From: Shimia marina
Lineage (GTDB): Bacteria; Pseudomonadota; Alphaproteobacteria; Rhodobacterales; Rhodobacteraceae
Direction of reading: 5' to 3'
DNA: 64,000 bases
Assembly: GCF_001458175.1 (NCBI RefSeq)
Contig: NZ_CYPW01000027.1
Span: 190,390-254,389, forward strand
A model generated the notes under the pieces. It searched no databases, was not told the DNA's origin, and saw nothing but the letters and a program-made list of their open reading frames with translations. Of the stretch, positions 27,073-44,106 are shown piece after piece (positions within the stretch are counted from its first letter, which is position 1; each line of letters opens with the position of its first letter). A program made the position numbers and the translations under genes.

Positions 27073-27570
27073 ATGAGCTTTCATTCATCAATGGAAAACG
27101 GGACAGAGCAGTCGTTCATGGCTGACTATCTGGACTCGTTGGCGCTTGTTGAGCGTCTTCACCGGCTTTTGCTGGATGTGATCAAGGATGAGTTCGAGCG
27201 GGTTGGTGTGATAGAGATCAACGCAGTGCAGGCGCTGCTGTTGTTCAATATCGGCGACAATGAAGTGACCGCAGGCGAACTGAAAACACGCGGATACTAT
27301 CAGGGCTCTAATGTGAGCTACAACCTCAAGAAACTTGTGGATGCAGGCTATATGCATCATCAACGCTGCGAGATTGATCGCCGGTCTGTACGCGTGCGTC
27401 TCACCGATCGCGGTCGTGAGATCCGTGACGTGATTTCCGCCCTCTTTGCGCGCCATGCGGAAGGGTTGCAGGCCAAAGGTGTGCTCGGAGAAGACGGTAT
27501 TGAGCAGATCACCCACGCGTTGCGCCGTGTTGAGCGCTATTGGACCGACCAGATCCGATACATTTACTAA
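27073..27570 (+). CDS. ldtR: MarR-type winged-helix regulator, LdtR-like
   Basis: A 165-residue winged-helix protein with pattern ALLLFNIGDNEVTAGELKTRGYYQGSN, VSYNLKKLVDAGYMHHQR and RRSVRVRLTDRGREI, closely resembling LdtR of Rhizobiales and Liberibacter, which controls L,D-transpeptidase genes and cell-wall properties. The wing contains the DRRSVRV strand. ATG at 27073 follows GGAGTAAAAG. It is monocistronic with its own terminator. No L,D-transpeptidase gene lies in the window; targets are inferred from the family. Confidence 0.78.
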   Translation: MSFHSSMENGTEQSFMADYLDSLALVERLHRLLLDVIKDEFERVGVIEINAVQALLLFNIGDNEVTAGELKTRGYYQGSNVSYNLKKLVDAGYMHHQRCEIDRRSVRVRLTDRGREIRDVISALFARHAEGLQAKGVLGEDGIEQITHALRRVERYWTDQIRYIY

Positions 27571-29863: not shown

Positions 29864-30160
29864 ATGACGCGCTTTTTTCTTTTGGCCGTTACGGCCCTTG
29901 TTACCCTGTCTGCACCGGGCCATGCGCAAAACTGGAGCTCGAATGCTCCGCAAATTGGCCCTGTTAATCAGCCTGAGGGGGTTTTGTTGCATCCTTATCC
30001 CGCACGGGAAAACTACTGCCCATACGGGTTGGAGCCTATTACAGTGGGCGGAGTGATTTGCTGTGGCACAGCTAACACATCAGAGCCCTATGTTAATCGA
30101 GCCGGACGTTCAGCGTATCGTCATTCAAGCTGCCCTCCGGGCGCCAAGGGGTGCTCCTAA
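29864..30160 (+). CDS. Small secreted cysteine-containing protein
   Basis: A 98-residue protein with signal peptide (MTRFFLLAVTALVTLSAPGHA, cut near residue 22). The mature 76 residues have five Cys: NYCPYGLEPITVGGVICCG, SSCPPGAKGC. They could form two disulfides in the periplasm. No family recognised. It starts 114 bases after folA, probably on a separate promoter. Confidence 0.55.
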   Translation: MTRFFLLAVTALVTLSAPGHAQNWSSNAPQIGPVNQPEGVLLHPYPARENYCPYGLEPITVGGVICCGTANTSEPYVNRAGRSAYRHSSCPPGAKGCS

Positions 30161-31029: not shown

Positions 31030-31554
31030 TTATTCTGACGCGCGTTTGCCAAAAATGGCGTCTACAGAAATTGGGCCTGCGCCTTTGAACACGAGTACCG
31101 CGAAGAGCAGCACCCACATGGCACGCTGATCAATCAGGCCTTGAGCGCTGTCAAAGAAACCACCCAGCGCAACGCCATGGCCTGTCACATCCACGATGGT
31201 TTGTACGATGATAAATCCAATCATCCCGAAAGCGGCGACCCGTGTGAGCAGGCCGATGACGATCAAGACGGGTAAAACAAACTCTGCAATGGTGCCTGCC
31301 AGAATGACAATCCGTTGAAAGAAGCTCATTTGGGTTACATCCCAAAGCACAGCTTCTGCGGCTTTCGGGAAGATTTGTCCGAAGGCTCCAGACGAAGGGG
31401 AGAAGATTGAGCCGTCAATTTTGAGCAGGGCTGAGTTCCAGAAATAGAAAAACAGGACGGCGACAAAAGTCAGGCGTGCCAATGTCGGTACCAGCCAATC
31501 AAGGCGATTCAGCCTATCCAGAAGGTCGGTGTATTGCGAGATAAGGCGTGTCAT
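31030..31554 (-). CDS. DoxX-family membrane protein of the bufferin operon
   Basis: A 174-residue inner-membrane protein with four hydrophobic helices (about 25-45, 78-100, 103-125, 140-160). It matches DoxX/SURF4-like pattern: LARLTFVAVLFFYFWNSALLK, and the Leu/Val-rich EFVLPVLIVIGLLTRVAAFGM. DoxX proteins commonly close bufferin and related MNIO operons, where a redox or membrane role is proposed. Here it is 12 bases downstream of the bufC-like gene, and is the last gene before a terminator. Confidence 0.82.
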   Translation of the reverse strand: MTRLISQYTDLLDRLNRLDWLVPTLARLTFVAVLFFYFWNSALLKIDGSIFSPSSGAFGQIFPKAAEAVLWDVTQMSFFQRIVILAGTIAEFVLPVLIVIGLLTRVAAFGMIGFIIVQTIVDVTGHGVALGGFFDSAQGLIDQRAMWVLLFAVLVFKGAGPISVDAIFGKRASE

Positions 31555-31566
31555 GAGACTCTCCGG

Positions 31567-32319
31567 TCAGCTAGGGACGTCAAAAGATGTGAGGGCGTTG
31601 CCGGTCAGCAGAAGGCCCAGAGTTGCACCAAGATCAAAACCTTCGTCGGCCTCGGTTCCAAATTCTGCGGCGGTGCCAAGCTTGGCACCCGCCATAAGGG
31701 CTGTGACACATTCATATGCGCCGGGTGGCAGCACATGGGGCAGCGGATCATATTCAGGCCGTAGGATCAGCACATCCTGTGCCACTGCCGCAGGCTTGGG
31801 GCCATCCTGCATGTTGAAAGCCCAGATGGCGTGGATCGGCCAGGAGGAGCGTTGCACGGAGACGGCTGGGGCGAAATTGGCTGTGATGTCCACCAGCTTA
31901 TCCTGTGGAATTTCAGCGAGTGTTTCCGGGGCCACACCGGTGCTGTCTGCGGCATGATAGGAACGGCGCAGGCCCAGCTCCAAACGGGCGACATCGCCCA
32001 GATAGCCCAAATGCGCCAGAGGTTCGAAGCTCTCCAGAAAAGTTGGGAAGTCAGCACCGTAGTGCATCATCATGGGAGATGTGGGCGGGAACTGCCGCAG
32101 AAAAATGCCCGCAATTGCATTGAAATTTTCCTCGCCAAGCAATTTGGCAATGGTTGGAAAGCCTGTAGCGAGCGCTTCGCTGAGCGAAACGGCCACGTTG
32201 TTGCGATACACATCAAAACGCCGCCCCGCGGGCTGACCAATGGCATCAGAAAGTCCAAGAGGGCGCTCTTGCGCACCATCAAAGATGGCATCTCGGAATG
32301 TGGTCTGCGTGACTGTCAT
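31567..32319 (-). CDS. bufC: MNIO partner protein, DUF2063 / BufC-like
   Basis: A 250-residue protein with the N-terminal DUF2063 (HvfC/BufC putative DNA-binding) domain at about residues 8-95: FRDAIFDGAQERPLGL, RFDVYRNNVAVSLSEAL and FPTIAKLLGEENF. A second, less conserved domain follows to the end. In characterised systems this partner presents the precursor to the MNIO enzyme (RRE-like). Its ATG overlaps the bufB stop by 4 bases (ATGA), so the proteins are made in step. Confidence 0.85.
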   Translation of the reverse strand: MTVTQTTFRDAIFDGAQERPLGLSDAIGQPAGRRFDVYRNNVAVSLSEALATGFPTIAKLLGEENFNAIAGIFLRQFPPTSPMMMHYGADFPTFLESFEPLAHLGYLGDVARLELGLRRSYHAADSTGVAPETLAEIPQDKLVDITANFAPAVSVQRSSWPIHAIWAFNMQDGPKPAAVAQDVLILRPEYDPLPHVLPPGAYECVTALMAGAKLGTAAEFGTEADEGFDLGATLGLLLTGNALTSFDVPS

Positions 32320-33173
32320 GACATTACCTTTGACAGCGCTTTATCCGCGCGCAGGGCCTCTGCATGCAGAACAGTCCATTCCGGTACATCGGTGTCCCAT
32401 TCGATCAGAATAGGGCGGGGGCCGGACAGGGACAGCGTATGGTCCAGCAAAGCCCAAACCGGATCCACAACCGGGGCGCCATGGCTGTCGATGAGGAGAG
32501 GTTTGCCATGATCATCTTCGTCTTCATCATGGCCGCCGAGGTGAATTTCTCCGACTTTCTCAAGCGGGTAGTCGGCGATGTATTGTTTCGGATCATAGTT
32601 CAGATTGGTGGCGGAGACAAAAACGTTGTTTACATCCAGCAACAAACCACAGCCCGTACGATTAGACACTTCGCGCAGAAAATCCGGCTCTGACCATGTG
32701 CTTTCGTCAAACGCCAGATAGCTGGAGGGGTTTTCGAGCATCATTTGACGGCCCAGCGTTTCCTGCAGGAGATCAATGTGATCCGCCACACGGTTCAACG
32801 TGTCTTGTGTATAGGGCAGGGGCAGCAAATCGTTCAGAAAAGCGCCCTCATGTGTGCTCCATGCAAGATGCTCCGAAAACACAGTTGGGTTCAGCCAATC
32901 TACCAGATGTTTGAGGCGGGCGAGGTGATCGGCATCAAGTGCCCCTTCGCCGCCAATCGACAGTCCGACGCCATGTACTGAGATTGGAAAGCGTTCTGAC
33001 AATTGGCGCAGTTGTGCAATCGGCCGACCGCCATCTCCCATGTAGTTTTCTGCGTGGATTTCCAGCCAGCCCACGGTGCCAGGATTTTCGATCAGGCTGG
33101 TATAGTGTTGTGGTTTGTATCCCACGCCTGGTCGGTTTGGCAGGTGATCTGGAGAGTGTTGAGCATCAAACAT
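32316..33173 (-). CDS. bufB: MNIO-family (DUF692) multinuclear iron oxidase, BufB-like
   Basis: A 285-residue TIM-barrel oxidase of the MbnB/DUF692 (MNIO) family. Candidate iron ligands and active-site residues are all present: His67 in ISVHGVGLS, Glu101-His102 in FSEHLAW, Glu147 in MLENPSSY, Asp180 and Asn183 in LLDVNNV, His211 in IHLGGH, Asp229-His231 in IDSHG, and Glu258 in LIEWD. MNIOs modify precursor Cys residues using O2; bufferin homologues make thiooxazole-type rings. It lies 10 bases after the second precursor gene. Function is strongly supported by context. Confidence 0.92.
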   Translation of the reverse strand: MFDAQHSPDHLPNRPGVGYKPQHYTSLIENPGTVGWLEIHAENYMGDGGRPIAQLRQLSERFPISVHGVGLSIGGEGALDADHLARLKHLVDWLNPTVFSEHLAWSTHEGAFLNDLLPLPYTQDTLNRVADHIDLLQETLGRQMMLENPSSYLAFDESTWSEPDFLREVSNRTGCGLLLDVNNVFVSATNLNYDPKQYIADYPLEKVGEIHLGGHDEDEDDHGKPLLIDSHGAPVVDPVWALLDHTLSLSGPRPILIEWDTDVPEWTVLHAEALRADKALSKVMS

Positions 33174-33183
33174 GGCAGCACCT

Positions 33184-33486
33184 TTAGGCAGGCAAATCTC
33201 TGGTCAGGGCTTCAAGGGAGGGTGTGCGCGGCGTTCCGTCAGCCATATCGGGCAGGTCCAAATTCAAGCAGGTGCCCTCATCAACCAATGTCCAGGCATC
33301 GCCTTGATAGTCGACAGTGGAGGTGCCTGCACAAGATGTGCCAGGCCCTGCTGCGCAATCATTTTTTCCGGCTAAGGAAATGCCAAAACACTTTTCTTTC
33401 TTGGCCGCTTCAGCAGGTGCTGCCTGAAGTGCAAGAGCAGCTGAAATCGCTCCTAGAACAGAGATTGTCTTGGCGGAATGAGCCAT
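33184..33486 (-). CDS. bufA: Bufferin-type RiPP precursor (DUF2282), copy 2
   Basis: A 100-residue exported precursor. A Sec signal peptide covers residues 1-28 ([21 protein letters not shown]). The four conserved Cys are at 33, 44, 52 and 73, in [30 protein letters not shown] and GTCLNL. This is the DUF2282 bufferin layout: EKC, a lysine-bounded spacer, CAxGPGxxCAG and a final GTC. Known bufferins bind Cu after modification of Cys by BufB and buffer copper in the periplasm. It precedes bufB by 10 bases. The paralogue upstream is over half identical. Confidence 0.9.
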
Positions 33487-33577
33487 TTGGGGGGTCCTTT
33501 ATGCTGCAGTTGTGAGTCGTTTGAGATCTGAACTGTCAGCAGTCTATCAAAATTCTGTCGGTTTAGGGGACAGGAGG

Positions 33578-33607
33578 GCGAAGCCCCGAAACGGGCCGGA
33601 GCTTCGC
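33578..33607 (-). promoter_or_regulatory. Hairpin between the two bufferin precursor genes
   Basis: On the minus strand GCGAAGC pairs with GCTTCGC, extended by TCCG/CGGG with one wobble, giving an 11-bp stem and an 8-base loop. No T-run follows, so it is not a classical terminator. It lies 10 bases after the first precursor's stop and 92 bases ahead of the next. It may protect the 3' end of the first precursor mRNA or partly stop transcription, raising its dose. Confidence 0.55.
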
Positions 33608-33616
33608 AAAATAGGC

Positions 33617-33922
33617 TTAGCTCTTTGGCAGGTCGCGATCCAGCACTTCCAGGGAGCCGACGCGGGGTGTGCCGTCTGCCAGTGCGGGCAGTTCCATGTC
33701 TACGCAGGTGCCAGCATCAACCAGTTTCCAAGCGTTGCCCTGATAGTCAACGGTGGAGGTGCCGGCGCAGGTGGTGCCTGGACCCGCGGCGCAATCGTTG
33801 GCGCCTGCCAGAGACACGCCATAGCATTTTTCTTTGCCTGCTGCAGATGCGGTGGTGGCATGTGCGGTCAGTGCTGCGGCAACGGCGCCTGCTACGGCGA
33901 TGGTTTTGACAGTCTTGGACAT
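33617..33922 (-). CDS. bufA: Bufferin-type RiPP precursor (DUF2282), copy 1
   Basis: A 101-residue precursor, first gene of the operon. Signal peptide 1-28 ([20 protein letters not shown]). Cys33, Cys44, Cys52 and Cys73 sit in [30 protein letters not shown] and GTCVDM, exactly aligned with the second precursor. The ATG at 33922 follows GGGAAGAGATATT. The tail shares [15 protein letters not shown] with its paralogue, so the two probably arose by tandem duplication. The upstream 190 bases hold an inverted repeat and the promoter. Confidence 0.92.
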
Positions 33923-34022
33923 AATATCTCTTCCCTTTGATACGGTTGAACTCGGCCCGCCGCGAAGCTGTTTGCGCCGGGGCATGACCAAACAATAGCC
34001 CTGCAATTGTGCATACTTCCAG

Positions 34023-34061
34023 TAACGGGGCTGTGTGTCACGGATGCGTTAGCAGCCGTTA
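34023..34061. promoter_or_regulatory. Imperfect inverted repeat upstream of the bufferin operon
   Basis: TAACGGGGCTG (34023-34033) pairs with CAGCCGTTA (34053-34061), two bases unpaired, about 100-140 bases upstream of the first precursor start. It may be an operator or a divergent ECF-type promoter region. No matching sigma-factor gene is in the window. Confidence 0.35.
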
Positions 34062-34113
34062 CGGTTTCGTGAAGATTCCAGCGCAGGAAGGTTAGAATTC
34101 CCTTAAAATGAAA

Positions 34114-39362: not shown

Positions 39363-40667
39363 TCAGACTCCCAAGCGATCTCGCATGGCATACCATGTCA
39401 TGGCCAAAGCCAAGAGAGGGCTGCGCAGTCGAGCACCGCCGGGAAATGGCGTTGCTGGCACGCGCGCCATTGTGTCAAAGCCTTCGCTTTCACCACATAG
39501 CGCCATGGCCATGAGTTGGCCCGCATGTGTGGCGGTGCCGACACCATGTCCGCTATAGCCCGATGCCGTCAGCACGTTGGGCCGGAGACGGCGCAGATAG
39601 GGCATGCGTTTCATGGTGATTGCCAGTGTGCCGCCCCAAGCATAGTCGATGCGCACGTCCTTAAGATGCGGGAAAATCTCCAACATGGGTTTGCGCACGG
39701 TTGCGGCGATGTCAGCGGGAAACCGATAGCCGTAGCTTTCGCCACCGCCGAACAATAGCCGGTTGTCATGGCTGAGGCGGAAGTAGTTGACGACGAATTT
39801 GGTATCTGCAACCGCGACGTCCTGTGTCAGCACTTTGACGGTGTCCGCCCCCAGAGGTTCTGTGGCGGCGATAAAATTGTTGATGGGCATCACACGGCTG
39901 GCCACTTTGGGTTCAAGCCCGCCGAGATAGCCGTTGCAGGCCAAGATCAGCTGATCTGCTGTGACTTTACCGGTTTCGGTTTGAATTGCGACCCGCGACC
40001 CGGCCTCAATTTTCGTGACCTGACTGGCCTCATATATCAGGGCGCCCGCGTCATCCGCTGCCCTGGCCAGACCCAGAGCAAATGCCAAAGGGTGCAAATG
40101 CCCTGCGCCCATATCAAGCGAGCCACCGACATATTTGGGGGAGGGGCAAAGCGCCGCCATCTGGGCCTGATCAAGCGGCTGGATTTGATCGTAGTTGTAG
40201 CGGTTTTGCAGGTGCTCAACATAGGTGTGTTCGGCGGCGACGTCCCGTTTCGTAAACCCTGCATGCGCAATGCCGGGTTTGTAATGACAGGCGATGTCGT
40301 GTGTGCTGATCAGCGCTTTGACGCGGTCTTTGGCGTCTTCCGCAAGATCCCAGAGCTTGCGTGCATCATCCGCACCCATGAGTGTTTCGAGATCATCCTG
40401 CTCCATACGCTGGCCGCTGCCAAGCTGCCCGCCATTGCGGCCTGACGCGCCAAAACCAACGCGATGCGCCTCTAGAAGCACCACCTTGCGACCAGCTTGC
40501 GCAAGGTGAAGTGCCGCAGACAGCCCGGTGAAGCCCCCACCGATGACGCAAACATCGGCGCGGATATCCGCTGTTAAGGCGGAGAACTTAGAGAGCGGCT
40601 GTGTCGTCGCTGCATACCAGCTTTGAGGGTAATGCCCTTTTTTATCATTGGCATATAGCAAGTTCAT
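39363..40667 (-). CDS. puuB: Gamma-glutamylputrescine oxidoreductase
   Basis: A 434-residue FAD amine oxidase of the DAO family. The dinucleotide-binding site is DVCVIGGGFTGLSAALHLAQAG (residues 38-59), and RVGFGASGRNGGQLGSGQR follows with the flavin-contact pattern. The C-terminal PNVLTASGYSGHGVGTATHAG closes the active site. It oxidises gamma-glutamylputrescine to the aldehyde in the putrescine-to-GABA route. It follows the PuuA-like ligase by 24 bases on the same strand. Confidence 0.88.
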   Translation of the reverse strand: MNLLYANDKKGHYPQSWYAATTQPLSKFSALTADIRADVCVIGGGFTGLSAALHLAQAGRKVVLLEAHRVGFGASGRNGGQLGSGQRMEQDDLETLMGADDARKLWDLAEDAKDRVKALISTHDIACHYKPGIAHAGFTKRDVAAEHTYVEHLQNRYNYDQIQPLDQAQMAALCPSPKYVGGSLDMGAGHLHPLAFALGLARAADDAGALIYEASQVTKIEAGSRVAIQTETGKVTADQLILACNGYLGGLEPKVASRVMPINNFIAATEPLGADTVKVLTQDVAVADTKFVVNYFRLSHDNRLLFGGGESYGYRFPADIAATVRKPMLEIFPHLKDVRIDYAWGGTLAITMKRMPYLRRLRPNVLTASGYSGHGVGTATHAGQLMAMALCGESEGFDTMARVPATPFPGGARLRSPLLALAMTWYAMRDRLGV

Positions 40668-40691
40668 CAGAGCGCTTTCTCAGAGATACTC

Positions 40692-42050
40692 TTACACGTT
40701 GAGCAGCAGGTGTTCCCGTTCCCAGGGCGAAATGACCGATAGGAATTCTTCATATTCGGCGCGCTTTACAATGGAGTAGACGCGGCAGAAATCAGGCCCA
40801 AGGACTTCATGCAATGAGGTTGCTTGATCAAAGAGGTCCAGCGCGCCGCCAAGAATGCGGGGAATGGCTTCTTCGCCATCATAGGCGTCGCCCTTGAACT
40901 GCTTGTCGGGACGCTCTTGCTCGATGAGGCCAAGATAGCCGCAGGCGAGAGAGGCTGCGATGCCAAGATAGGGGTTGCAGTCCATGCCCGCGATGCGGTT
41001 TTCCACCCGGCGGGCTTGGGGCGACGAAATAGGAATACGAATGCCGGTGGTGCGGTTGTCACGTGCCCATTCCAAGTTGATGGGGGCGGCGTGATCGCGC
41101 ACGTAGCGACGATATGAGTTCACATAGGGTGCCAGCACAGCGATGGCTGCGGGCAAGTGATTTTGCAAGCCTGCGATAAAGTGGAAAAACGCATCCGTAT
41201 CGCCGCCTTGCGGACCAGAAAAGATGTTCTGGCCCGTTTCGATATCGATCACAGAGTGATGGATATGCATTGCGCTGCCGGGCTCATTCTCGATGGGTTT
41301 GGCCATGAAGGTGGCATAGCAATCATGACGCAGGGCAGCTTCGCGGATCAGGCGTTTGAAATAGAACACCTCATCGGCGAGTTTGACCGGATCGCCATGC
41401 ACCATGTTGATTTCGAGCTGACCGGCGCCGCCTTCCTGCGTGATGCCGTCAATTTCAAATCCCTGCGCCTCGGCAAAATCATAGATGTCGTCGATGACTG
41501 GACCAAACTCATCTACTGCGGTCATGGAGTAGGCCTGACGTGCGGCGGCGGGGCGGCCAGAGCGGCCCATCATTGGCTTGATGCCTTGTGCCGGGTCCGT
41601 GTTGCGGGCCACGAGGAAGAATTCCATCTCAGGCGCGACAACAGGCTCCCAGCCTTTGGCGCGATAGAGATCCACGACCCGTTTCAGAACATTGCGTGGG
41701 CTGAATGGAACTGGGATGCCGTCCGTGTCAAAAGCGTCGTGAATGACCTGAAGCGTCCAGTCACCTGTCCAAGGTGCAGCAGTCGCCGTGCTCCAGTCGG
41801 GGCGCAGGATCATATCCTTTTCGATGAAGCCATCCTCGCCGGCTGCTTCTCCCCAATCCCCTGTGATCGTTTGATAAAAAATCGAATCTGGCAGGTGGAA
41901 ATATTCCTGTCGGGCGAATTTGCTGGCAGGAACGGCCTTGCCACGGGCGATGCCGGGTAGGTCTGAAATGATACATTCGACTTCGTCAAGCCGGTGCCCT
42001 TCGAGATAGGCGCGGGCAGCTTCGGGGGTTTGGGATAGCCAGTCGGTCAT
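40692..42050 (-). CDS. puuA: Glutamate-putrescine ligase (glutamine-synthetase fold)
   Basis: A 452-residue glutamine-synthetase-like ligase. It shows PEMEFFLVARN (metal/glutamate site), EGGAGQLEINMVHGDPVKLADEVF, MAKPIENEPGSAMHIHHSV and RDNRTTGIRIPISSPQARRVENR. These match the gamma-glutamylpolyamine synthetase branch rather than GlnA; the long adenylylation loop of GlnA is absent. It couples glutamate to putrescine with ATP. Its ATG overlaps the stop of the GATase gene by 4 bases, and puuB follows. Confidence 0.88.
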   Translation of the reverse strand: MTDWLSQTPEAARAYLEGHRLDEVECIISDLPGIARGKAVPASKFARQEYFHLPDSIFYQTITGDWGEAAGEDGFIEKDMILRPDWSTATAAPWTGDWTLQVIHDAFDTDGIPVPFSPRNVLKRVVDLYRAKGWEPVVAPEMEFFLVARNTDPAQGIKPMMGRSGRPAAARQAYSMTAVDEFGPVIDDIYDFAEAQGFEIDGITQEGGAGQLEINMVHGDPVKLADEVFYFKRLIREAALRHDCYATFMAKPIENEPGSAMHIHHSVIDIETGQNIFSGPQGGDTDAFFHFIAGLQNHLPAAIAVLAPYVNSYRRYVRDHAAPINLEWARDNRTTGIRIPISSPQARRVENRIAGMDCNPYLGIAASLACGYLGLIEQERPDKQFKGDAYDGEEAIPRILGGALDLFDQATSLHEVLGPDFCRVYSIVKRAEYEEFLSVISPWEREHLLLNV

Positions 42051-42730
42051 CGGGGCCTCTCTTGACGGAAGAAATCTGCAAATTGATCTGCAATTGTTTG
42101 GCTTGCGGTCGGCTCATCAAGCTGGTCGATGGCGGCTTCCAGAACCTCGTCAGGAACAACGCCGCGGCCGCGCGTATTGATCAAGCCATCGACAAAATCA
42201 GCTGAAAATTCAGGGTGCGCCTGAACAGTCAATGCGCGGTCACCGTAGAGGATTGCGGCGTGTTGACAGAAGTCGTTGCATGCAATTGTGGTGGCACCTG
42301 GAGCAAGTTCGACAACCTGATCCTGATGCCAGGCGTTCATGGCCAGTTTGGTGCCGGAAAAGTCATAGGTCTGATGACCTACAGCCCAGCCGCCGTCAAA
42401 TTTTTCTACTTTGCCACCAAGAGCTTGGGCGATGATTTGATGGCCAAAACAGACGCCGACCATGGGGATGTTCATGGTCACTGACTCGCGGATGAAATCC
42501 TCAAGCGGCGGGATCCAGTCGTGATCTTCATAGACCCCATGTTTTGACCCAGTGATCAACCAACCATCTGCGTCTGTTACAGAATTTGGAAATTCCCCAT
42601 CCACAACCTTATAGCCGTCAAACTCAAAATCCTGTCCTGAGAGAAGGGATTTGAACATCGCGATATAGTCGCCGTAGTGGGGTTTAAGCTCCTCAGGGGC
42701 GTGGCCGGTCAGTAGGATGCCGATTTTCAT
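42047..42730 (-). CDS. Class I glutamine amidotransferase-like protein
   Basis: A 227-residue GATase-fold protein. The nucleophile is Cys94 in GVCFGHQIIAQALGG, and a His-Glu pair appears in VQAHPEFSADFV. Length and sequence are of the GMP-synthase-like GATase1 type (PF00117), not the C26 peptidase PuuD of E. coli. In its position between two glutamyl ligases it may release GABA from gamma-glutamyl-GABA. Its promoter carries the AATTTGATCAAATT palindrome shared with the ligase upstream. Confidence 0.8.
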   Translation of the reverse strand: MKIGILLTGHAPEELKPHYGDYIAMFKSLLSGQDFEFDGYKVVDGEFPNSVTDADGWLITGSKHGVYEDHDWIPPLEDFIRESVTMNIPMVGVCFGHQIIAQALGGKVEKFDGGWAVGHQTYDFSGTKLAMNAWHQDQVVELAPGATTIACNDFCQHAAILYGDRALTVQAHPEFSADFVDGLINTRGRGVVPDEVLEAAIDQLDEPTASQTIADQFADFFRQERPR

Positions 42731-42740
42731 ATGTCACCAG

Positions 42741-42754
42741 AATTTGATCAAATT
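42741..42754. promoter_or_regulatory. AATTTGATCAAATT palindrome before the GATase gene
   Basis: Perfect 14-bp palindrome 11 bases before the GATase start codon, followed by a GGTGACA-TATG leader. A near copy precedes the next gene upstream (44123-44136) with the same leader. Likely a common operator. Confidence 0.55.
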
Positions 42755-42789
42755 TAGCGTAGCGTTGCGACAGGGTTGACGCAAGCGTG

Positions 42790-44106
42790 TCATACACGTT
42801 CGAGGTAGGTTTTCCACTGGGCCTCAGGTGCAATTGCTGCCAGTTTACGCATCTCTTGTCGCTTCGTCATGATCAGATTTTCGATCAGCTGCTTGGGCAG
42901 GCAGCGCGCGATAAAGGCATCCGCTTCAAACAGCGCAATGGCATCTTCCCAGCTTTGAGCCAACTGCGGGTGGTCTTGCTCATAGGCGCTGCCTTTGGCT
43001 GGAGCAGGGGGCGTGAGACCTTCATCAATGCCTTCGATGGCAGCGCCAAGAATGGCTGCGAGCATCAGGTATGGGTTCACATCGCCTCCGGCGACGCGGT
43101 GTTCAATGCGCCGTGCGGCGCTGGGGCCGCCGGGAATGCGGATGGCGGCGGTGCGGTTTTCATAGCCCCAGCAAATAGACGTGGGTGCATGGGCCCCGGG
43201 TGCAAAACGATCATAAGATGGCCCATTGGGGGCAAAGATCAGAGTGGAGGCTTGCATCGCGGCAAGGCAACCAGCCACAGCAGAGCGCAAAAGATCTGAG
43301 CCTGCCTCGGTGCCATCATCAAACACATTGTTGCCGTCTGCATCGACCACAGAGAAATGAACATGCATGCCGTTGCCGGCATCATCAAGGTAAGGCTTGG
43401 CCATGAAGGTGGCCGCAAAGCCGTGATTGCGGGCCGTTGCGCGCAGCAAATACTTGATCAGCAAAGCATCATGCGCGGCTTTCATGGCATCCTGATGGTT
43501 CAGAGTGACTTCAAATTGTCCAATGCCACCTTCGCTGGTCATGGTCTGCAGCGGGATGCCCATGGCCGCTGCGCCATCGTAGATATCAGTGAAGAACGCA
43601 TCAAACGCATCCAATTCTGCGACACTCAGGATTTCTGCAGCTTCGACCTGACGGCCGTCTCTGGGGTGGCGCGGTGGGGTGATTGCGTCGCCGCTGTCAT
43701 CCACCAAGGTGAACTCCATTTCCGTGGCCGCAACCACGCTCCAGCCGCGCTGTGCAAATCTGTCCAAAACAGCTGCAAGCGCCTGAATCGGGTCACCTAG
43801 AAAGGGCGCGCCGTCTTCTGTGTTAAGGCACATTAAGACCAGTTGCGAAGATGTCGCGAGCCAAGGCATTGGCACTGCGCCCCGACATGTTGGGAGCAGG
43901 ACACCATCCTGATCTCCGCTTTCAAACACCAGTGGGCTGTCTTCAATATCACAGCCCCACATGTCCAGATTAAGTGCAGAGAGTGGCAGGCGGGCGCCGC
44001 CTTTCTTGAGCTTTCCCAAATGTGCTGAAGGCAGGCGTTTGCCGCGCAGCTGGCCATTCAGATCCACCGCGCCGATACGGAAAGTTGCGCTATGTGCCGA
44101 AGTCAT
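42790..44106 (-). CDS. Second glutamine-synthetase-like ligase
   Basis: A 438-residue glutamine-synthetase-family protein. It shows ATEMEFTLVDDSG, MTSEGGIGQFEVTLNHQDAMKAAHDALLIKY, MAKPYLDDAGNGMHVHFSVVD and ENRTAAIRIPGGPSAARRIEHRVAGGDVNPYLM. It is only distantly like the neighbouring PuuA. It probably ligates glutamate to another amine. It is first of the putrescine-type genes after the ABC transporter, with the palindrome 44123-44136 in its leader. Confidence 0.85.
   Translation of the reverse strand: MTSAHSATFRIGAVDLNGQLRGKRLPSAHLGKLKKGGARLPLSALNLDMWGCDIEDSPLVFESGDQDGVLLPTCRGAVPMPWLATSSQLVLMCLNTEDGAPFLGDPIQALAAVLDRFAQRGWSVVAATEMEFTLVDDSGDAITPPRHPRDGRQVEAAEILSVAELDAFDAFFTDIYDGAAAMGIPLQTMTSEGGIGQFEVTLNHQDAMKAAHDALLIKYLLRATARNHGFAATFMAKPYLDDAGNGMHVHFSVVDADGNNVFDDGTEAGSDLLRSAVAGCLAAMQASTLIFAPNGPSYDRFAPGAHAPTSICWGYENRTAAIRIPGGPSAARRIEHRVAGGDVNPYLMLAAILGAAIEGIDEGLTPPAPAKGSAYEQDHPQLAQSWEDAIALFEADAFIARCLPKQLIENLIMTKRQEMRKLAAIAPEAQWKTYLERV

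Follow-up and report, generated by a model that had tools for sequence, protein, structure and literature searches.

We identified a five-gene operon of the Buf1 bufferin type on the minus strand of a 64,000-nucleotide stretch of the Shimia marina genome (contig NZ_CYPW01000027.1, positions 190,390 to 254,389; hereafter the window, within which all coordinates are counted), together with a predicted operator upstream of its first precursor gene and a hairpin after that gene. The reading that best explains the whole, a Buf1-type bufferin operon in which precursor is made in excess over enzyme, we hold at a probability of about 85%. The bufferin family is already published and widespread, and the operon itself is an ordinary bufferin operon; one more operon of a known peptide system changes little, and it is the regulatory anatomy, the operator and the hairpin, that is worth following.

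Gene content and order

The operon opens with two genes for DUF2282 bufferin precursors, bufA1 (33617..33922; 101 aa; PF10048, E 2.3e-24) and bufA2 (33184..33486; 100 aa; PF10048, E 4.7e-23). These are followed by bufB, encoding an MNIO (DUF692) bufferin maturase (32316..33173; 285 aa; PF05114, E 5.4e-104), bufC, encoding a DUF2063-RRE partner of PME type 1 (31567..32319; 250 aa; PF09836, E 1.9e-23), and a gene for a DoxX-like membrane protein (31030..31554; 174 aa; PF07681, E 9.2e-05), all on the minus strand and all with ATG start codons. An earlier reading of this stretch from its letters (the sequence-only reading) had proposed five minus-strand genes at these coordinates, with cysteines at residues 33, 44, 52 and 73 of both precursors, and the open reading frame (ORF) calls and translations bear this out; the DUF2282, MNIO (MbnB_TglH_ChrH) and DUF2063 families that it named each score above their own Pfam cut-offs. 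It had also described one tight operon. That description holds from bufA2 onward, where the junctions are 10 nt (bufA2 to bufB), a 4-nt ATGA overlap (bufB and bufC) and 12 nt (bufC to the DoxX gene), and fails between bufA1 and bufA2, because these are separated by 130 nt with a 12-pair hairpin inside. The length of this first junction, the hairpin and the conserved site upstream of the operon had gone unmentioned.

We compared the locus with relatives found with the MNIO as query, taking the best 80 of 478 confirmed loci, some of them with genes clipped by contig ends. The order precursor, MNIO, DUF2063, DoxX was found by tblastn in 80/80 relatives, indicating that the gene array is not a chance one. 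Tandem precursors occur in 4/80. DUF2282 genes were present in 25/25 genomes of the genus and in 178/248 of the family; S. marina itself has one MNIO over the cut-off and two DUF2282 genes, all inside this operon.

Both precursors contained a DUF2282 domain over the Pfam cut-off with the four conserved cysteines, and their N-termini have a basic start, a hydrophobic stretch and an A-x-A motif, which we read by eye as a Sec signal. Exactly four cysteines were found in 124/124 precursor sequences, a count that includes duplicates and in which the search motif itself demanded the first three.

The maturase matched the NCBIfam equivalog model NF050167 ("MNIO family bufferin maturase") with 371.4 bits against a cut-off of 310, and it fell below the cut-offs of the HvfB, ApyH, MbnB and ChrH models. 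For HvfB the score was 239.5 bits against a cut-off of 360, and the EGKCG repeats are absent from the translations; for MbnB it was 62.6 bits against 325. The nearest solved MNIO by sequence was 3BWW (E 4.8e-42). Ten candidate metal-ligand residues (H67, H102, E147, N182, N183, H211, H215, D229, H231 and E258) were identical in 81/81 MNIOs, in keeping with the earlier claim that all expected ligands are present. Most of their roles we take to be those of the corresponding residues of MbnB. D229, H231 and either N182 or N183 were matched by eye, via 3BWW, to D242, H244 and N175 of HvfB, the roles of which are described in PMC13419390.

For the partner, an AlphaFold2 model of BufC built on an alignment of the window and 38/80 relatives had a mean predicted local distance difference test score of 91.6, and the only solved folds that it matched with E < 0.001 were TglI (8hci_A, 8hi7_A) and NGO1945 (3dee), both named as MNIO partner proteins by Antoine et al. 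(PMC12452194). The DoxX-like gene closes the four-gene order in 80/80 relatives; such a gene is frequent in Buf1 operons, and not obligatory. The bufferin-type interpretation of the sequence-only reading therefore stands, since the NF050167 model was passed and the precursor family, its four cysteines, the partner and the gene order all match Buf1 (PMC12452194).

A double palindrome upstream of the operon

A conserved block first became apparent in an alignment of upstream regions from the genus. We extended this to 104 upstream regions, or 98 distinct regions after removal of 6 repeats, excluding L046, in which the contig ends in the precursor, and keeping two stand-alone precursor copies (L110 and L111) out of the matrix. 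An iterated matrix identified a 29-bp site before the first precursor in 94/98 distinct regions, consisting of two tandem 14-bp palindromes, TNACG-N4-CGTNA, set 15 bp apart and with the first base of the second palindrome relaxed. In the window, both the matrix and the exact pattern place this predicted operator at 34023..34051 on the minus strand. Ten of its columns were identical in at least 93 of the 94 sites and the 4-base spacers were variable; the 94 sites come from related loci and are not 94 independent observations, and the free variation of the spacers serves as an internal control.

The site ends immediately upstream of the -35 region, and a TAnnnT hexamer was found 24 or 25 nt past it in 82/94 cases; 200 shuffles of the tails gave 2.3 on average and 9 at most. 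In the window, the predicted -10 hexamer is TATTGT (33992..33997, minus strand). A plain sigma-70 promoter was rejected, none being listed at this place and the -35 being poor. RNA structure was rejected as the cause of the block, as dyad columns 14 and 40 are unpaired (mostly G with G).

Over 762,296 bases of these loci the matrix gave 94 hits above 20 bits, all of them before the first precursor and none elsewhere; because these loci also served to train it, it is only the lack of hits elsewhere that carries information. In the S. marina genome the exact pattern occurs once, before bufA1, and with two mismatches allowed it occurs at one further place, against 9 for the backward pattern. An exact site was present in 36 of 248 family genomes, never more than one per genome, compared with 1 for the backward-pattern control. 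These exact sites precede a DUF2282 gene in 33/36 cases (31 by table, with G172 and G105 added on reading). In one genome from another genus (G087, locus L117, position 2020-2048) the exact operator lies between the precursor and the MNIO gene. Exact matches in G136 and G189 were left as chance; these are in or beside other genes: the former adjoins an aldehyde-dehydrogenase-like frame, and the latter lies within the first codons of a LysR-type regulator-like gene (by eye). Outside the family, we found the exact pattern in 0/140 genomes from other families of the class (142 scanned, two of them of this genus).

We additionally noted that the G087 precursor has a degenerate copy only (4.2 bits) in its own upstream region, and that a lipase-like gene (by eye) stands upstream of that locus in place of thrS. 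Further upstream of the operator, at 34076-34089, many Shimia loci carry a near-palindrome, TTCCAGCGCTGGAA (TTCCTGCGCTGGAA in the window), which is absent from several others (e.g. L087, L095, L097, L099 and L100) and which we take to be only loosely like the site of the copper sensor CueR.

The site would lie, by its spacing, at -66 to -38, and this position together with the poor -35 suggests that the regulator is an activator. Control by SigF was rejected, as no NrsF was found in 25 genomes of the genus and the SigF consensus does not fit the conserved block; in Caulobacter, by comparison, DUF2282 operons are driven by SigF, which is held by NrsF, with the consensus GTAACC-N16-CGAA (PMC3511200). 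The search for NrsF, run at E 0.001, returned 0/25 genomes of the genus and detected the Caulobacter positive control; in S. marina the best match, within a 730-aa open frame, scored 14.2 bits (E 0.057) against a cut-off of 26.8. In the literature searched, which left most subscription journals outside its coverage, none of the matches listed described an operator or a hairpin in a bufferin operon, and the available part of a copper proteome of a related roseobacter (PMC6308992) does not mention DUF692, DUF2282 or DUF2063.

A hairpin after the first precursor gene

Folding and comparison of 81 operons (the window and its 80 relatives) identified an intercistronic hairpin downstream of bufA1 (33578..33607, minus strand), with 12 pairs and a 6-base loop, followed by CCTCCTGT. 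Counting a stem as perfect pairing with G-T allowed, we found at least 8 pairs past the first precursor in 74/81 operons, with a median over all 81 of 11, compared with 12/81 in a control stretch upstream of the precursor and 191/1620 in shuffled sequences. The seven operons with weak stems comprised five in which a bulge or mismatch interrupts the stem (L025, L032, L045, L049 and L054), one with the hairpin located further downstream (L057) and one with none of note (L076). The 74 stems had 61 different 5' arms, for which single-linkage clustering at 75% identity gave 13 groups, with 39 in the largest, indicating that pairing has been kept while the sequence changes.

Median distances are 14 nt from the stop codon to the hairpin and 25 nt (minimum 17) from its end to the next start. 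In single-precursor operons it lies between the precursor and the MNIO gene, and in Shimia tandems between bufA1 and bufA2, where the stem reaches 10 pairs or more in 13/14 distinct gaps. A known Rfam element was ruled out, as the window gave zero matches at gathering scores, and the window hairpin is no canonical intrinsic terminator, since its tail, CCTCCTGT, has no T-tract and it is absent from the list of terminator-like sites. We take this hairpin as a device for precursor excess, which could act through segmental mRNA stability or through partial termination.

The second precursor of Shimia

We built a maximum-likelihood tree from 111 different precursors, based on 100 columns (few, by the tool's own warning). 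In it the Shimia A2 sequences including that of the window formed one clade with two stand-alone third copies (support 100/95), separate from every A1 and every single precursor in the tree, and the tandem pair of Aliiruegeria (L076) fell outside it. By position, a tandem pair is present in 14/25 genomes of the genus and missing from 11/25, and the gap between A2 and the MNIO gene is 10-32 nt in 14/14 distinct Shimia tandem operons tabulated. Elsewhere in the family, two DUF2282 copies were found in 4/246 genomes (G031, G124, G228 and G256, the last on two contigs). Judged by this tree and by gene position, bufA2 is an old Shimia paralogue placed between the hairpin and the MNIO gene. Tandem-precursor operons as such have already been reported by Antoine et al. 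(PMC12452194).

As groups, A1 and A2 differ next to the second cysteine. Asp precedes Cys44 in 17/18 A1 rows; the A2 rows have Gly there in 14/18, His in 2/18 and Asp in 2/18. In this comparison 3/18 operons are one genome drawn from two collections. The A2 of the window retains the Asp, and all A2 copies keep the four cysteines and GPGT. The Shimia tandem offers a natural substrate pair with which to ask how tolerant the MNIO is next to a modified cysteine.

The stand-alone third precursors (L110 and L111, in G023 and G004) lie on a separate contig, have NHC before the second cysteine and fall inside the A2 clade; their upstream alignment shows no operator.

Proposed mechanism

By comparison with characterised relatives, BufC would bind each precursor by its signal-peptide end and present it to BufB, the mixed-valent iron pair of which would convert the central Cys44 and Cys52 to 5-thiooxazoles, with the outer Cys33 and Cys73 joining in a disulfide; the product would then be exported by Sec and bind surplus Cu(I) in the periplasm. 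These steps follow published work on the relatives. In Buf1, modification affects the central cysteines and a disulfide joins the outer pair, and copper buffering is reported for the bufferin family (PMC12452194). A 5-thiooxazole has been assigned in bufferin 1, with nuclear magnetic resonance support after alkylation in other captophorins (PMC13097082), and in oxazolin biosynthesis the mixed-valent iron state that is active depends on the partner, and the signal peptide is leader-like (PMC13419390). From this analogy we infer that copper is the ligand here.

At the level of expression, a regulator occupying roughly -66 to -38 would drive the promoter, and the hairpin would raise the bufA1 message above that of bufA2-bufB-bufC-doxX. 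A stoichiometric copper sponge would thereby be made in excess over a catalytic enzyme, and the Shimia bufA2 product would stand near the level of the enzyme. For the Rhodobacteraceae we propose tentatively, at slightly less than even odds, that a dedicated regulator acts on the once-per-genome double palindrome upstream of a weak -35, in place of SigF and NrsF, that the hairpin sets the ratio of sponge to enzyme, and that the second, diverged precursor of Shimia, on the enzyme side of the hairpin, gives two bufferins at two levels. If confirmed, the operator would offer a route to the missing bufferin regulator in a common marine bacterial group, and the hairpin a simple account of unequal amounts of sponge and enzyme from one operon.

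Several observations weigh against this account. In 79/79 testable loci (tblastn) thrS lies directly ahead of the operon on its strand; inheritance of the locus is therefore as a block, and the relatives are not independent. Four of the 98 upstream regions (L027, L075, L082 and L083) have no site, and the strict pattern precedes DUF2282 in only 33/178 DUF2282-bearing family genomes (and is found in 55/94 even among matrix-matching loci), so that in much of the family the site is looser, different or absent. No regulator gene is a regular neighbour in the flanking ORFs. Among three upstream ORFs at 79 loci (14 largest groups) the regulator most often recognised by eye was an ArsR-like gene, the third ORF some 2.7 kb off at 7 loci, with a two-component pair at 2/79, and among three downstream ORFs at 78 loci (12 largest groups) no regulator. 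A T-rich tail (at least 5 T in 8 bases) follows the hairpin in only 14/81 operons, and simple intrinsic termination is therefore not the general mechanism; one of the 14 distinct Shimia tandems (L098) has a perfect stem of only 5 pairs; and the DoxX-like protein scores just under the Pfam cut-off (23.4 bits against 23.6). The Caulobacter DUF2282 operons driven by SigF respond to dichromate and cadmium (PMC3511200), so that the metal may be one other than copper.

Alternative explanations

That last response would fit a peptide that serves a soft metal other than copper, or general stress of the envelope, as would the name of the "gig" operons, taken from gold (PMC12452194); those Buf1 bufferins that have been characterised, however, like other thiooxazole peptides, are reported to bind copper and to aid growth under copper stress (PMC12452194, PMC13097082), and we regard this alternative as unlikely. 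As to bufA2, it could be a relic, or have a job unlike that of bufA1, given the drift to Gly before Cys44 in 14/18 A2 rows and the genomes of the genus that lack the pair. We find this doubtful, though worth keeping in mind, as the A2 clade is deep and retained in 14/25 genomes, every copy keeps its four cysteines and GPGT, and the copy in the window still carries the Asp.

For the hairpin, partial termination with read-through by some polymerases has an appreciable chance of being the correct explanation, if still a minority one: the stems are G+C-rich with a median of 11 pairs and some have T-rich tails, but most tails, including that of the window, have no T-tract, and the list of terminator-like sites does not include the window hairpin. 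Segmental mRNA stability, as conferred by the hairpins of the puf operon, requires no T-tract. Alternatively, the hairpin could act as a copper-dependent switch of translation, of the kind described for Rhodobacter cutFOG. There, a stem-loop lying between the gene of the small exported sensor CutF and the enzyme gene cutO masks the cutO ribosome-binding site until a stalled ribosome opens it (PMC9973294). The two loci share the layout of small exported Cys protein, hairpin and enzyme gene (PMC9973294), and the short distance from stop codon to hairpin would allow a stalled ribosome to open it. Yet the bufferin hairpins stop 17 nt or more short of the next start and leave the ribosome-binding site free, the BufA C-termini have no proline-rich stalling tail visible by eye, and in tandem operons the gene past the hairpin is another precursor, and we consider a switch of this kind quite improbable.

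Other observations

Around the operon, we noted a MarR-type gene at 27073-27570, 3.5 kb from the operon end, and a 98-aa ORF on the opposite strand at 29864-30160, 0.9 kb past the DoxX end of the operon, with a signal-like start, five cysteines and no Pfam match. At 39363-44106, a DAO-type oxidase, two glutamine-synthetase-like proteins and a class-I amidotransferase are clustered, which suggests a gamma-glutamyl amine or polyamine pathway. We additionally identified partial BufA1 matches in 246/72,556 plasmid records, none covering 80% of BufA1; these include 60 from Escherichia, 17 from Klebsiella and 8 from Salmonella, and 106/246 are predicted to be conjugative.

Comparison with known systems

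The closest known systems are the Buf1 operons, such as Caulobacter CC3254-3257 (PMC3511200, PMC12452194), with which the Shimia operon shares the order of DUF2282 precursor, MNIO, DUF2063 and DoxX-like protein and the four cysteines, tandem precursors also having been reported. It differs from the Caulobacter operon in having two precursors split by a hairpin, in that no NrsF was found in the 25 genomes of the genus, and in a double palindrome in place of the SigF consensus. The oxazolin and captophorin operons (HvfABC, FonABC) are alike in the precursor with a signal peptide (Hvf; by eye in Shimia), the MNIO, the PME type 1 partner and, there, the 5-thiooxazole chemistry, and unlike in their EGKCG precursors and in the MNIO, which falls well short of the HvfB model. 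The methanobactin (MbnABC) and 3-thiaglutamate (TglHI) systems share the MNIO family and, for TglI, the partner fold (8hci), and differ in the precursor family and the MbnB score. Finally, cutFOG of Rhodobacter capsulatus likewise has a hairpin between the gene of a small exported copper protein and that of an enzyme (PMC9973294), but its loop covers the next ribosome-binding site, whereas the bufferin hairpin stops a median of 25 nt before the start.

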